Shown here: positions 1 to 15,579 of the stretch, piece after piece
Layout of the letters: every line of letters begins with the position of its first letter
How positions within the stretch are numbered: position 1 is the first letter of the stretch
DNA from: Tausonia pullulans
Taxonomy: Eukaryota > Basidiomycota > Tremellomycetes > Cystofilobasidiales > Mrakiaceae
DNA: 64,000 bases
Assembly (NCBI GenBank): GCA_951802195.1
Contig: OX637629.1
Coordinates: forward strand, 1,054,001 to 1,118,000
Direction: 5' to 3'
Position numbers and translations under genes: made by a program
Notes under the pieces: model-generated
The model's database searches: none
What the model was told of the DNA's origin: nothing
Seen by the model: only the letters and a program-made list of their open reading frames with translations

Positions 1-1754
1 GCTTCAACTCCTCAGACGGCCGTCAAGGCGTACCTGCTTGGTGGCCTTGCCTGGTTTTCGATTCCCTTCGGTCTCGCCACAACGTGAGATTCTCCGATCC
101 TACGGAAAGTGCCCGACTGATCCTGCTCCTTCCGCTCAGACTTGGTCTCGCTGCTGTTGCCCTCGGTGTCAAGCTCTCTCCTTCCGAGATCGGAGATGGG
201 CTGCCGGCCCCCGTCGCGGCAGCTGCTCTAATGGGCAAGGGAGGCGCAGGTGCCATGCTCCTTCTTCTCTTCTTGGCCGTCACTTCGGCGACCAGTGCCG
301 AGCTAGTTGCTGTCAGCTCGATCTCGACTTTCGATATCTACAAATGCTACGTTCGTCACACACCACTCGCTCTTCACGTCTCATAGCATCATTGACTGAC
401 GCATGATGGCTGGATAGATCAACCCCCGAGCGACGGACGACCAAGTCCTTCGATGGTCCCACTCCAGCGTTGTGTACGTCCAGCGTCAATGAGTGTGAGG
501 ATGTTCCACAGCTGACAGACTGTTTCTCTCTCCCTCAGCGCGTTCTCCCTCGTTATGGGCGTTCTTGGCACGATCTTTTACCATATCGGCGTCTCGATGG
601 GTTTCCTTTACGAGCTCATGTGAGTCCGGCCCACATTCAATAAGTCGCTGTGATTCCGTACTAATGACCTTATAGGGGGACTCTCATCGGCTGCGCTGTT
701 GTCCCCGTCGCCATTTCCATCACTTGGCGCAAGGCTAACAAGTGGGGCTGCATCTGCGGCGCCATCTCTGGTCTCTGCCTCGGTCTCATGACTTGGATTG
801 TCGCTGCCGCCAAGCTCAACGACGGTCTCATCAACATTGACACGCTTTTTCAGGACTACCCAATGGTGAGCGAGATCCGATGACTTCTTAATCGACTTGT
901 CATGCTAAACCGCTAACTTGCTCTCCGACCAGCTCTCGGGCAACCTTGTCTCCATCAGTGTTGGAGGAATCGTCTCGATGACTTGGTCACTTCTCAGTCC
1001 CGAGGATTTCGATTTTGACATCACTCGCGCCCTCAACTTCAAGTCCTGCTCAACAGTTACGGAGGCGGAAGGCACCGAGCCTCCTCTCGAGCAGGAGGAC
1101 AAGAAGGCTACCAGTGTGGAGGAGCCTTCGCCGGACGAGGCCAAAATCTATATCGATGAAAATATCGCTCGTGTCGACATCCCGGAGATTGGTGAGCTCT
1201 CCTGCTCCTTCAATCGACTTGCCTCCATGGCCGACAATGCCACTCTGTCTGCTTCCTTCCAGACTACACGGGTCTCCAGCGCGCCTTCTCATTTGCGGCA
1301 ATCGCATCAATCACCCTTGCGATCATCATCCTGATCGTGAGCACTTTCCTTTTGAAGCTCCCCTCTCTCCCGCGCAGACCTCTTACTCCTCCGCTTGAAG
1401 ATCATTCCCCTTCCCCTCTTCTTCTCCAAGCACGTCTTCAGTTCGGCATCGTTCACTGTCTGGGTCGTTGTGTCCATGATCTGGGCCTGGATGGGGGTAT
1501 GTTCTCGAAGCAGGCGCCTTCTGTAGCTTCGAGCAAGCCACTGACCCTCTTTATCCTACCCTCCTCAGGCTCTTATCGTCGTCGGTTTGCCGCTGTGGGA
1601 ATCGCGCCGTGGCCTGGGCAAGGTCGCCACCGGCATTTACAAGGTGCGTCGCTGTGCCACTTGTTTAGCTTCACAGATAACTTACTGTTCTCTATGCCTT
1701 CCATCTCGACAGGACATCTTTCAACGTGGCACTGGAGCCTACGTCCGTAATTGA
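1..1754 (+). CDS. DUR3: Urea permease DUR3, C-terminal part (gene enters from the left edge)
   Basis: Sodium:solute-symporter family transporter that imports urea (in yeasts also polyamines) across the plasma membrane. Exons at 1-83, 140-350, 418-473, 539-619, 676-865, 933-1191, 1263-1336, 1401-1496, 1569-1643 and 1713-1754 join into one open frame of 388 codons plus stop; every intron is GT-AG. The family signature AVTSATSAELVAVSS followed by FDIYK and INP, typical of DUR3, is encoded at about 275-430. Hydrophobic membrane segments alternate with short loops, and an acidic cytoplasmic loop (Glu/Asp-rich, about 1060-1190) precedes the last helices. The protein ends GTGAYVRN. The N-terminal half lies outside the window. 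A dihydropyrimidinase gene lies 4.6 kb downstream, so two nitrogen-scavenging genes share the neighbourhood. Identification is firm from conserved motifs; substrate range is inferred from the family. Confidence 0.93.
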
Positions 1755-9210: not shown

Positions 9211-12200
9211 TCACTTCCTCGACCGTGTTGAGCGGGTGACAGCCGGGGCGGGGTCGTCCTCCGTGAGGGCAGCTGTCTTCCTCGTCGCCTTGGTCGCGCT
9301 TGCAGCCTTTGCCTTGGAGGCAGCAGGAACGGTCTTGGCCCTCGAGGTTGTCACGGGAGTCGCCTGCTCCGGAGCATTCTCCTTGGGGAGAAAATGAGAG
9401 GAGAGTCAGTCGTGAGGAAGCGCGAATCGGGCACAGGACAGCATTCGCTCACCTTGTTGTCGTGCTCCTCAGCGACGGCCTTGAAAGCCGCCGCCGCCCG
9501 GCGTCGTTTGGGCGCGCTCTCGTCGGGAGTTGTGGCCGCAGTTCGAGAAGGGACTGCGGTAGAAGGCTTGAGGGCAGTCCTCTTCCTCGAGGACGGGGCA
9601 AGTTTTTCCTCCTTCGCTTCTACGGCCTCCTCCACCTCAGCAGCAGCAGCGGCAGCGGTAAAAGCTGCCTTCGTCATTGATTTTGTCGCCCGCTTCGGCT
9701 TGGCCCCAGGGGCAGACTCAGGCTCGTCGTCCTGTTTGGCAACTGCGGCAACAGTCCTTCTAGCCTTGGTGGCACGCGTGATGTCCGGCGCAGATGTGGT
9801 AGACTCATCAGGGCCAATGGAGTCAATGGGGTCGACTGCAAAGCCCTCCGCCGATGCAGGAGAAGTCCGCTTTGTTGAGCGCGGCATCTTGATCCGCGGG
9901 TGGACGGTAGGAGAAGCGACCTCGATGGAGGCAGCAGCAGCCTTGGAAGTGGTTGCCCGGGACTTGCGGACGGGAAGCTTGCTGACAGGCACAGGCTCGG
10001 AGTCTTCGCTCGTCTGAAAGGAGGGTGCCGCACGGCGTGTCTTGGCGATAGGAACAACCTCTTCAGCGGCCATAGCAGCCTTGAATTCTGGCGACGCAGC
10101 AGCAGCAGCAGCGGCCGCCTTGGTTGTCCGGGTGCTGGAGGGGATCTTGCGCGTGCGAGTAGCCTTCGACGGGGGCGAGATAGGCGCGCTCTCTTCATTT
10201 TCCGGCTCGGCTTCAGGCTCATGCACAAGGGCGACCTTCGGCGCAGCAGCCTTACGGCTACGGATAGCACGGGTTCTGGGCGCAGGAGCCTCCTGGGACT
10301 CCATCTTCTCCTTCTCCTCACCGAAAGAGTCGGCCGGAACCTTGAGCGCGGATCGCACAGTCCGGCGAGTGGGAGCGACGACAGCAGTCTCCGTGGTCTC
10401 AATGGAGGCGGCCCTGCGAGTCACCCTGCGAGGTGCAGGCTTAGGGGAGAGCTCAACCCGGCTGGGTTCTCCCTCTGCCTCGTTGGCCTTGAACACCTCT
10501 GCGGTCTCCTCCTCAGTGACCTCGCCGGGATCCTCGGTAGCCTCCTCCAGCTGGGACTGCTGTTGAGACGCAGCCGCTTGCTCCGCCTCGTCGTCGTATA
10601 TGTCCTCGGGCTCGTACAGCTCGAGGTCGCCACGGGCGAGTTCGGCCTCCATGCCGAAGCCCTGAATGCCAAGGTCCTCGTCGGATAGGGCGCGCGAGGG
10701 CGAGTCATGCTCCTCATCGTGCGAGGCAAAGAGCGTAGGGACGCCCGTAAAGTGGGCGTCAAGGCTCGAGGTGGGTTGGTTCGAGGGAGTCCGGAGAAGC
10801 TCGCGAATGCCGGCAAACTTGGGTGTCGCCGCCATCTCGGGCTGCTCCTGGAAGAGCCGCTTGACTCCGCCAAACCTAGGCGTCGCGACAACTTCGGGCT
10901 GCTCCTGGAAGAGCTCCTTCACGCCGACAAGCTTGGGGGTAGAGTTAGGCTGGGCCGGGAGCTGGAACATGTCCCTGACACCCCCGAATCGCGGGGTGGC
11001 CAAAGTTGAGGTGTCCTCCTTGTCGAGCTGGAACATTTGCTTTATACCATTGAAGCGAGGGGTCGCCGCCGACGCTTTGATTGGGTAGAGGTGCTTAATA
11101 TCGCGCATGTAGGGGGTAGGTGGCTCCTGGCGCGCCGCCGAGCGAGATGAGGAAGCGACTTCATGGGTGGCGTCGCCGGCGGCGGCATGCTCCTCCTCCT
11201 TTTCTTCCGCCTTGGCCTCCTGATCAGAGGTCATCTCGCCCTCCGATGCATTGGATCGGATTCCCGGAGACTCGGTAACCTCGCAGAGTTGCGACTTGGA
11301 CAGCGACAAGGGGCGGGAAGTGGCCGGAGTACCCAGGGCCGACCGAGCGGGCGACTGGAAGAGCCAAAGGGGCGAGTCTTGGAGGAGCGGGGTCGCGATC
11401 CGACGCAAGGGGGTGCTCTCGGATGCAGCTCCAGCGGGGCTCTCCGTCACGAAGCCTCCAACGCTGGGACGGGCCATACTCTTGCGTCGAAGCTGCTCGG
11501 CCTTCTTGGCGAGGCTCTTGAGGGGCGTCGAGGTCTCCTCGTCGCTCGAGCTCGAGCCGGTGTCCTTGGACACGGTCGATTGCATGAGCTTCCTCGGCGA
11601 GGAGTAAAGCTCGTTGAAGTCCGGAATCTTGCTGAGCTGACGGGGCGCCGAGGCGAGAATAGAAGACATACAGTCTTGGCGAGAGGGCTAAAATGAGAGG
11701 TGTCAGCGCCTGAAGGTGGAATCTTTAACGTGATGTAACGACACACCTCCTCCTCCTCCTCCTCCTCCTGAGGCTCCTCCTCCTCCTCCTCGACGACCCT
11801 GGTCTTTGGCGCCCGAATAGGCGCACCAAGGCTGGACCTCTTATTGAGGCCAAGATCGTGGCCGCGGGGACGGATGCTAGGAAAAACCAGGCGAGGCGAA
11901 GGCGCCGCAACGCGGACAGGTGGTCCCATCGTGCGCATGAGGTTCTCGCGGTGCAAAGCAGGCTGGGAGACCTGGGGAGTGTAGAAAGCCCTAGAGGAGG
12001 GTGGAAGAGTCTAGTGATATAAGGGCAAAGCGTCAACAAACGATGACAAGATACATCATGAGTTGCTCGGTGACTGACCTGAGGGGTGGCGGGAAGAGGA
12101 ATCGAAGCTGGGTCGACGACGTCCTCATTCCCCTCCTCCGCCTCCTCGATTTTGACGGCCATGCCTTCAGCGTCAGCATCGTCGTTGACCTCGCTATTCT

Positions 12201-15111
12201 CCTCCTCCTCGATCAGACTCCGTTCCACCTCTTCGTTGTCCTCGTCCTCCGAGAAGAAGTGGTCGTCTACCGGGATGGGAGTGAAAGGCGCCGAGTCGCG
12301 GATCTGGAAGGGGGGAGCACCTGTGGAGGAGCGAGGGGTGACGGCGAAGGAAGTACCGGGGAGAGACGCATGCAGAGCCAGAGTAATTTGCGGTTCGACA
12401 GCGTCCTCCTCGGCAACACCAACACTCTTATCCATGTCCCCACCCTCGAAGTCCATTTCCTGGCCCAGCTCCTCCTCGGCGACGGGATCCTCCTTGCTGT
12501 GCGAATTCTCCATCTCACTGTCTGAATCCTCCATATCGTTGTCTGAATCCTCCATCTCGTTGTCCGAATCCTCAACGCCGTCAAAAACGGACTCAGCGCG
12601 CTGCGATGAGGAGGCGGTCTTCTTAGTAGGCGACGTGTCCGAACGAGAAGTGTACTGAAAAGAAAATCAGAGGATGGGTCAGCCATAGACAAACAAAAAA
12701 AAAAAGTATTCAGCCAGAGCAGAAACAAGCTACTCACGCCACCGACAGAAGGCGATTCAGGCAGGGGGACCTGGGCCGGGTCAACAGTGTCCTGCACGAC
12801 GTCCTCCTCCTTCTTCTCCTTCTCCTCCTCCTCTTCCTCCTCGTCCGAGGCAGTAGTCATCTCGGCGCGTTGTTCAAACTCGCGCCTCCGCTCGTCGTTA
12901 CGAAGAATCTTCTTGGCGCTCCGGAGGAGGATTGCCTTGCGGAGGGAGTTGGGTCCGCCTTTGCGGACGGACGCTGGGGCGGCATTAGGCGTCTGTGAAA
13001 TGACAGTCGCCTTCCTGGAGGGCGTTGCCGCCGAAGCTTGTTGAGAAGCATCGGGGGGGGTAAAATGCGCCTCAATCGATGCAGGGGGAGTACCGAGTCG
13101 CGAGGATTGGGGAGTAGCACGCGACGAGGACGCGCCGGCTGAAGCGGGAGTGCCCGGGACTGGGGCTGCATAGGGAGTATCGTCCGGAGGGGGAAGAGGG
13201 ACGCTCTTGGGAATCCTGGTAGCAGCGATGGGGGTTGCCGAATGCAAGGAGATGCTGCCGCTGCTTTCATGGGCGGGAGGAGTCTGCTCCGCGAAGTCAA
13301 CGGTATGACCGCGGGTAGATGGAGTGACGGGGGGCGCCTTGGTGAGGAAGGAGAGGGCGGCCTTCTTAATGGACTGAAGAGGCGAGTAAGGGGACGAAGA
13401 CGCTTCGGGGTGCGGGATTGAGGAGGGAGTCTTCGGGGGCTGAGCCTGTATGTTCGAGTATCCATGGAATCAGAATTGACTGCGATCTCGCAGACGGAAT
13501 GGCAGGACGCACCATCGGCTCGGCCTCAGCTTTCTCCACCTCACTGCGCTTCTCGTCGCAGCTCGCCATCTCAGTGTCGTCGTTGAACTTTCGCTCCTCG
13601 TCATCAGCCTCGTCCTGCTCCTCTTCCTCGTCTTGCGCCTCCTCGACCTGCTCCTTTTCCTCCTCGTCGACCTCGGACTCCTCCTCTTCCGACGAGACCG
13701 CCTCCCGCATGACCGGAGGTGCGACTTTCTTGACCTGAATGATGCGAGACCTCGGAGCGGCGCTCGTTGCTTGCTGGGCGCGTGGGTGAGTCGGCCGGAC
13801 GGGTTGAGGCGTCATGAAACCCCAAGGGAGGGGGCGCTGCAGAAAACGCGACAAGGGTCAGAGCGAGAGACGATGAGATCGACAGGAGGCAGACATACCG
13901 AGGCAGAAACTGTGGCCTTTGGAGTGCCCGCAATGGGAGTGTTCTCCTTCTCCTCATCCTCCTCTTCATCCTCTTCATCCTCTTCATCCTCTTCATCCTC
14001 TTCGTCCTCCTCCGAGGAGAGGTCGTCGGCCTGGTCCTCCTTCTCTTCCTCGCTGGCCTCTTGATCGAGCTCGGCCTGACGGACATCGTTGATCTGCTGC
14101 TCCTCTAAATCCATCGCTTCGTCTTCCTCTGAGGCCTCCTCTGAGTCCTCACGGGCAGCCACGAAGCTCGCCGAGAGGGCGGATGGGGCCGCCGTGAGTG
14201 CCGACGGCTGGTACCGAGCGACAGGTTTGAGGGGCGACTGAAGCCTGGCGGCAGCCTGGGCGTCCTTCTCGGCGTACGGCGAGAAAAGGAGGTCCTTGGG
14301 CAGAAGCGAGAGCCGCTGCGAGGGTCGGGCGCGTCGCGGCGTCGAGACCTGGGTGAGCGAGCCCGCGCGCACATGGGAAGCAGCGTCAATCACAGTCTTC
14401 GGAGCGGAGGAGAGTGCGCATGGTACTTGCTAACCTTTGACCTGATGACCCGTTCCTCAGGAAGGGGCAGGACGAGCTGGAAGTCCTTTTTGCGAATCGT
14501 GACGACGTCGAGGTCGTTCAGACGAACGACGTTCGGCGGGAGGACGAGGTGACCATTGACCTCGACTCCAGCGGATCCTTTGACGTGGAGGGTGGCCTGA
14601 TACAAGTGTAAAAGGCCTGTTAGATCGTCTTGATGGCTCAAGGGGTGCGTCGTCACTCAAAAGAGATAAAAAAAGAGAGGTCACACCTGAGAGTCGCCGT
14701 CGAAGACGAGCTCGCAGTGGAAGCGAGAGACCTCCTTGTAGTATATTCGGACCTGAGGGAAGCATACGGACGTCAGCACAATTCAGTATCTGGGCAAGAG
14801 AAGGTGGTGGGATGAGGGGGCTGGTCAGGGACTCAACGTCATTGTCGACATCCCTGGAGGGCAGAGGTGGAAGTGGGGTAGAGAGAACAACAACATCGTC
14901 GCACGTCAGCGCTTGCTTGCCACCCTTCGCCTTGCACCCCGAGAGAGATAACAGCTAAATCAAGAAAGCACCTTCCGAAGCGAACACTCTCTCCATCAAT
15001 GGGATATGTGCTGAACTCAGTGGGGCGACCCTTGCGGAGGAGGCGGAGCGTCCCAAAGGAGCCAACCTGAGGGGCGTCCTCCGGCGGGGGGGACGGTCGG
15101 TAGTCGTCCAT
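9211..15111 (-). CDS. Ki-67-like FHA protein with G[VI][KR]xLFQ repeats and basic Arg/Ser-rich tail
   Basis: Eleven exons on the minus strand (14972-15111, 14838-14853, 14687-14752, 14435-14596, 13899-14396, 13513-13836, 12738-13445, 12079-12654, 11747-12010, 9453-11687, 9211-9381) join to 1,720 codons including the stop, about 1,719 aa. Residues about 14-125 are an FHA phosphopeptide-binding domain: RFGRDVDNDVRIYYKEVSRF, then HCELVF, EVNGHLVLPP and LNDLDVVTIRKKDFQ. This resembles the FHA of animal Ki-67 (GR, C/NDxRI, VSxxHC, VNG, DVxTI). Residues about 130-920 are disordered, with long Asp/Glu runs and many SP/TP sites. Residues about 1105-1240 hold about seven repeats such as TPRFGGVKRLFQ and TPKLVGVKELFQ, close to the GFKELFQTP core of the Ki-67 repeat. 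The rest is Ala/Lys/Arg-rich with many TR, RSRK and RTRK pieces and ends TRSTRSRK, like the chromatin-binding LR tail of Ki-67. Inferred role: mitotic chromosome-surface protein. A generic FHA transcription or DNA-damage factor is the alternative. Confidence 0.8.
10720..11130 (-). repeat. Block of about seven Ki-67-type short protein repeats
   Basis: Units read on the minus strand: TPYMRDIKHLYP, TPRFNGIKQMFQ, TPRFGGVRDMFQ, TPKLVGVKELFQ, TPRFGGVKRLFQ, TPKFAGIRELLR and a last HFTGVPTLFA. Spacing is about 17-24 residues. Most units begin with a TP dipeptide, a minimal CDK site, and carry the hydrophobic pattern G-[VI]-[KR]-x-[LM]-F. The DNA is diverged between units, so the conservation is at protein level. 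Confidence 0.85.
14838..14853 (-). other. 16-nt micro-exon inside the FHA domain
   Basis: Encodes the DVDND part of the FHA motif GRDVDND between two introns. It is required to keep frame between the 140-nt first exon (phase 2) and the 66-nt third exon, and the junction residues match the conserved FHA GR-x(2)-[CN]-D pattern, so the exon is well supported although very short. Confidence 0.85.
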
Positions 15112-15496
15112 AGGACGGGGCCTTGTGGGAGAGGATAGGGAGTGTGGTTGTCGCTGCCGAGAAAGGAGGGGCGGATGGGGATTGGGGTGGTGGTAGGGAG
15201 GCAGAGGAAGGAGGAGGAGGGGGAGTGATGGTTGGAAGCGAAGGGCGGAAAGAAGGGACGCGCTTGACTGTTTTGAACTCCCCCTCCACGTCCGCTTGCT
15301 CGCTAAGTTGACGCGGTCTGTCGTTCCTGAGCTGCAACCCAGCATGTCTCTGCAAGCGACAGATGCAGCTTTCTTCCTTGAGCAAACAAAATAAGAGAGC
15401 AAGTAACTGGGCCCAAGTAATAGAGTCGGCTATAAGGTCGTCACAACATTGTCGCAACTGTGAATATGACGAGCTGGGATGAAGAAGTTCAAAAAG
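15112..15496. other. Upstream region of the Ki-67-like gene
   Basis: No gene seen. The first 200 bases on the plus strand are G/A-rich, which is a CT-rich leader in the sense of the minus-strand gene. The tRNA gene begins at the right end, and its T run (as transcribed) lies at 15491-15495. Confidence 0.55.
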
Positions 15497-15579
15497 GGTC
15501 CGAACCCGGGATTGAACCGAGGACCTCCATGAAGTGTTGAACACCCTAACATGGCGTGATACCGCTACACCATCCAGAC
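15497..15579 (-). tRNA. tRNA-Pro (anticodon AGG) with an 11-nt intron
   Basis: On the minus strand an 83-nt cloverleaf can be drawn. The acceptor is GTCTGGA paired with TTCGGAC (with G-T pairs), the D-arm contains TAGCGGTAT, the anticodon stem is CCATG/CATGG, the variable loop is 5 nt, and the T-arm is CTCGG-TTCAATC-CCGGG. The anticodon loop is 18 nt instead of 7. Placing an 11-nt intron after position 37 leaves TT-AGG-G-T, anticodon AGG, which reads CCU. The unpaired base after the acceptor is C, as in yeast tRNA-Pro, and a T run follows as the Pol III terminator. The acceptor helix differs from the usual GGG start of eukaryotic tRNA-Pro, so the identity is a little less sure than the fact that it is a tRNA. 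Confidence 0.82.

Follow-up and report, generated by a model that had tools for sequence, protein, structure and literature searches.

The 64,000-nucleotide stretch of Tausonia pullulans DNA analysed here (the window) raises the question of whether a basidiomycete gene whose product is laid out like vertebrate Ki-67 encodes Ki-67 proper, a member of a related fungal family, or an unrelated nuclear protein that has converged on the same arrangement. An earlier note on this DNA had ascribed to the gene the complete layout of vertebrate Ki-67, and its author knew of no characterised fungal Ki-67. On the latter point the literature has moved ahead, as a fungal protein with a Ki-67-like layout is already in print, namely bridgin (Bgi1/Bkt1, CNAG_01903), a kinetochore protein of 1295 residues from Cryptococcus neoformans (Sridhar et al., 2021; PMC7794384), of which Ki67 is named the metazoan homolog and which is termed 'Ki-67-like' in a review (PMC9252888). 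We propose that the T. pullulans gene very probably belongs to the bridgin (Bgi1) family, i.e., to the fungal branch of the Ki-67/bridgin FHA family. This assignment is made from sequence against the published description of Bgi1, from which we infer orthology to the Cryptococcus protein.

The gene itself is real. As the earlier note had claimed, it can be read on the minus strand through 11 exons joined in frame, from 15111 down to 9211 (stop included), and its spliced translation gives 1703 amino acids with no internal stop (Table 1). The exon junctions were set by eye at GT and AG, hence the GT-AG borders of all 10 introns (10/10) follow from that choice; the introns are 59-118 nt long, and a match to CT[AG]A[CT] lies inside 8 of the 10, a count made without a chance control. 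Exon 2 comprises only 16 nt; without it, the frame would break and the FHA motif GRDVDND would be lost. Independent support for the gene model comes from the metagenome protein P0003 (E 1.1e-11 in a protein search of 5.8 billion sequences), because it aligns across the FHA domain, where 42 of the 81 ungapped columns are identical and an insert of 24 residues lies a single residue away from intron 3, and then along the stretch that follows the FHA. A protein search with residues 1-180 returned no match at E 0.01. With exon 10 (9453-11687), the protein search found P0001 alone, a copy differing at three residues (1117 I/M, 1366 S/F and 1562 P/L), one of which falls within a repeat core; P0001 probably comes from a different strain, either of this species or of a very close one. 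A tRNA-Asn (GTT), the sole tRNA found in the window by ARAGORN, lies at 15496-15579 on the minus strand, upstream of the start codon by about 385 bases.

Table 1. Position of the gene, its exons and the features of its product, numbered along the window.
Feature	Residues	Position	Strand	Basis
Whole gene, ATG to stop		9211..15111	minus	11 exons, spliced translation open throughout
Exons 1-6		15111-14972, 14853-14838, 14752-14687, 14596-14435, 14348-13899, 13836-13513	minus	spliced translation
Exons 7-11		13445-12738, 12654-12079, 12010-11747, 11687-9453, 9381-9211	minus	spliced translation
FHA domain (exons 1-4)	about 18-118	14465..15060	minus	Pfam FHA; PDB best match Ki-67 FHA
Conserved post-FHA stretch, TPRRxRPSxRxSLxPKDLLxSPYAxxDA...QSPLxP	131-178	14199..14342	minus	P0003 alignment
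Acidic, SP/TP-rich middle	129-1084	11142..14348	minus	composition
TVDF, only RVxF-like stretch noticed by eye; not strict RVxF	434-437	13293..13304	minus	position
Repeat array	1091-1226	10716..11123	minus	pattern and profile searches
Basic C-terminal region with R[ST]RK and VTR pieces	1311-1703	9214..10463	minus	composition, motif positions

According to its published description (PMC7794384), Bgi1 carries an FHA domain (residues 1-124), soon after which comes a putative PP1 site of unconventional type; its acidic, unstructured middle (USD; pI 4.65) repeats a consensus motif 13 times, and its basic domain (BD; pI 11.20) binds centromeric chromatin. Bridgin is recruited by the KMN network; its homologs, recognised by an amino-terminal FD, an unstructured centre and a basic carboxy terminus, are reported from all Basidiomycota subphyla, but were not found in some orders (PMC7794384). 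The T. pullulans protein shows these same features, i.e., an N-terminal FHA, a long acidic middle (residues 129-1240; net charge -107) and a basic tail, and, like Bgi1, it has a repeated motif in the middle region. It is longer than Bgi1 (1703 against 1295 residues) and has fewer repeats (5-7 against 13, as compared by description and not by letters); the pI of its acidic region, 4.41 for residues 129-1084 or 4.50 for residues 129-1240, stands against 4.65 in Bgi1, and its tail is less basic (pI 10.25 against 11.20). The long acidic, SP/TP-rich middle had been noticed earlier and was found again here, residues 129-1084 having a net charge of -105 and 35 [ST]P sites, with disorder judged from composition. 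A separate acidic stretch (residues 1241-1310, pI 4.05) stands between the repeats and the tail, and we counted it, like the weaker basicity of the tail, against assignment to bridgin.

The N-terminal FHA domain, also claimed before, is recognised by Pfam in the full-length protein (42.9 bits, E 6.8e-11) and in residues 1-581 (44.8 bits, E 1.7e-11), the cut-off being 20.7 bits. It contains G46 R47, S61 x x H64 and N88 G89, which we take to be the usual phosphothreonine pocket residues of FHA domains. The earlier note had proposed to compare this domain with the Ki-67 FHA, and among PDB chain sequences human Ki-67 indeed proved to be the nearest (1r21, E 2e-6; 2aff, E 3.4e-6), followed by bacterial FHAs from E 8.3e-4 and, as the first other eukaryotic chain, by a kinesin-like protein at E 0.061; trimming the query to the domain left the order of matches unchanged. 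As controls, exon pieces of other FHA genes in the genome were compared in the same way: that of a second gene matched Rad53 best (E 0.0017) and that of another matched kanadaptin best (E 4.1e-4, with SNIP1 at E 0.35, behind non-FHA chains), Ki-67 being absent up to E 10 in both cases, while the 29-residue FHA piece of a third (L001) gave one weak PDB match (E 0.51). P0003 had no match in the PDB at E 1. Since Ki-67 tops the PDB matches of the domain while the pieces of other FHA genes match Rad53 and kanadaptin, the comparison supports an FHA of Ki-67 type. Given this, together with the fact that, of the 14 PDB sequences up to E 1, none bears the name of a checkpoint or repair FHA protein, and with a whole layout that fits bridgin too, we consider it unlikely that the protein is an unrelated FHA nuclear scaffold of the checkpoint or DNA-repair type, in which the acidic stretches, the CDK sites and the basic tail would have arisen by convergence outside the FHA, even though FHA is the sole Pfam family above cut-off in the full-length scan and the likeness of the repeats to Ki-67, described below, is weak at database scale.

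Directly behind the FHA lies a conserved stretch that is absent from the earlier note. It is identical to P0003 in 34 of 52 ungapped columns, at least as high a conservation as that of the FHA itself, and it may constitute a docking motif.

The repeats had been described as seven units of the form TP-x-F-x-G-[VI]-[KR]-x-[LM]-FQ. The array exists, but this pattern fits only three units, four when the F is freed and five when FQ or LR is allowed. The five clear units, TPxxxG[VI][KR]x[LM][FL][QR], lie at residues 1111, 1133, 1152, 1171 and 1190, and a count of seven is reached by adding the degenerate units at 1093 and 1212 (TPYMRDIKHLY and DAHFTGVPTLF), the spacing being 18-22 residues. In 20,000 shuffles of the protein the pattern TPxxxG[VI][KR]x[LM][FL] never appeared, against five observed occurrences. 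When all seven units are made into a profile, it recovers these seven, by construction, and no eighth; an exon-by-exon search of the genome in six frames, taken to E 10, matched the repeat region nowhere else.

Against a profile made from the five clear units, the Ki-67 motif, as printed in a review (PMC8354752), scores 13.7 bits, a value reached by none of 50,000 motif shuffles (best 11.2) and by none of the 5,388 22-mers of the six-frame translation of the window (best 6.7); the seven-unit profile gives 10.9 bits, which 2 of 50,000 shuffles reach and which the best of the 5,388 approaches at 10.6. Simple alignment of the repeat to the motif yields P of about 0.04 at standard gap costs and 0.002 at lenient ones. 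At database scale, among 177,635 sequences, the motif would have an E-value of 0.23-0.28 (14.2-14.5 bits), and PDB chains without evident link score 16.9 and 13.2 bits in that comparison. Because of these values, because the comparison was chosen after the fact, and because the TP sits nearer the repeat core in this protein than in Ki-67, we regard the likeness of the core to the Ki-67 motif as suggestive, exceeding that of shuffled sequences and not proving shared repeats. The resemblance is possibly new, as we found no comparison of bridgin repeats with the Ki-67 motif in the portions consulted of seven papers (PMC7794384, PMC8354752, PMC9252888, PMC11417379, PMC4032110, PMC9089191 and PMC13144362).

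A true Ki-67 would be a perichromosomal surfactant that coats whole mitotic chromosomes and recruits PP1, with KI67R repeats and a tail of the Leu/Arg-rich (LR) type, and these molecular features were searched for in turn. The earlier note had suggested a profile check of the repeats against the Ki-67 repeat family; at E 10, KI67R (PF08065) matched neither the repeat region nor the array core nor the full-length protein, despite a working positive control in which the human 22-residue motif alone scored 42.5 bits. A KI67R search of the genome produced one match only, of 15.6 bits and below cut-off, situated outside the gene (L005, C5:904008-904175) and probably due to chance. The strict RVxF PP1 motif has 0 matches in the protein; in Ki-67, RVxF is conserved in all orthologues according to the review cited above (PMC8354752). 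PP1_bind (PF15276) did not match the full-length protein at E 10, and a genome search with this profile found none, no control genome being matched either.

The tail is basic (net charge +24, for a region boundary set by choice), yet it is Ala-rich (Ala 21.9%, Arg 9.4%, Leu 1.8%) and does not qualify as an LR domain. Accordingly, the earlier description of the tail stands as regards its basic character and the presence of VTRS (one copy) and RSRK (two copies), and fails as regards LRSRK (0 occurrences in the tail) and leucine content. R[ST]RK is found there in three copies, a number reached in 0 of 3000 shuffles. We rejected these VTRS and RSRK pieces as evidence of LR-domain homology, since short Arg/Lys pieces converge readily and since, to the authors of the bridgin study, the basic regions of Bgi1 and Ki67 showed no evident conservation (PMC7794384).

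In comparison with vertebrate Ki-67 (MKI67), therefore, the fungal protein has in common an FHA whose nearest solved chain is that of Ki-67, an SP/TP-rich middle, a repeat core of the G[VIF][KR]xLFQ kind and a basic tail, and differs in its repeat spacing (18-22 residues against about 120 in human) and in lacking a KI67R match, a strict RVxF PP1 site and a Leu-rich tail. 'Complete layout of vertebrate Ki-67' was too strong a wording, and we did not file the gene as Ki-67 proper. True Ki-67 identity seems very unlikely to us: the closest FHA in the PDB, the identical order of FHA, acidic middle, repeats and basic tail, a repeat core resembling GFKELFQ and the report that the human Ki67 basic region can substitute for the bridgin basic domain (PMC7794384) speak for it, and the lack of KI67R repeats, strict RVxF and Leu-rich tail, the solitary genomic KI67R match, the missing PP1_bind and the kinetochore localisation of the studied basidiomycete relative (PMC7794384) speak against it. 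As the features of bridgin homologs are present and three features of Ki-67 are not, we assigned the gene to bridgin. The earlier note had left a choice between a Ki-67 homologue and a convergent surfactant; kinship is supported for the FHA, whereas a perichromosomal surfactant role appears less likely than that of a kinetochore linker, because Cryptococcus bridgin sits at kinetochores. A Ki-67-like layout is also described for the MOON proteins of Anthozoa, which share N-terminal Ki67 features (PMC11417379): SpMOON1 resembles the fungal protein in its N-terminal FHA and C-terminal repeats, but MOON proteins possess a PP1 domain and DNA-binding repeats (PMC11417379), and the fungal protein has no PP1_bind match.

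How a bridgin of T. pullulans would work can be proposed by analogy with Cryptococcus bridgin, on which every step of the following scheme is modelled. At G2/M, the FHA would read phosphothreonine and, together with the acidic middle, rich in CDK sites and bearing the TP repeats, would dock on the KMN network of the outer kinetochore. The basic tail would then grip centromeric chromatin by charge. Thus the protein may strap the outer kinetochore to the centromere, alongside the CENP-C linker and chiefly during anaphase.

The kinetochore genes detected in the genome were surveyed by profile as well. CENP-C (PF11699) has a match above cut-off (56.3 bits with neighbours), for a cupin profile that is not fully specific and matches control genomes below cut-off; Ndc80 and Spc7/Knl1 likewise have matches above cut-off. 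For CENP-I, -N, -L and -U, six-frame, exon-by-exon searches of the genome found nothing, with the controls silent too, so that absence is not implied. All 11 genome matches of CENP-T_C are under cut-off, and the best of them was rejected as CENP-T, being a core histone (Histone, 115.6 bits). The genome thus looks like one with a CENP-C linker system, which agrees with the report that bridgin accompanies the loss of other linkers (PMC7794384).

Our answer to the earlier note is that a characterised fungal relative of Ki-67 exists and that this gene is most likely another, ordinary member of its family. What the locus sharpens is the question of whether Ki-67 repeats are ancestral. We tentatively entertain, as a possibility short of probable, that the repeat cores are homologous and that the ancestor of bridgin and Ki-67 had, behind its FHA, a series of short CDK-site repeats whose core was G-[VIF]-[KR]-x-L-F-Q. 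If true, the epitope region of Ki-67 antibodies (FKELF) would predate animals, and the repeat would be a functional element common to both proteins, perhaps a docking helix switched by phosphorylation, and not a vertebrate invention. Should GxKxLFQ be common to bridgin and Ki-67, one could ask what the unit binds in each of the two proteins and in which direction evolution ran between kinetochore strap and chromosome coat.
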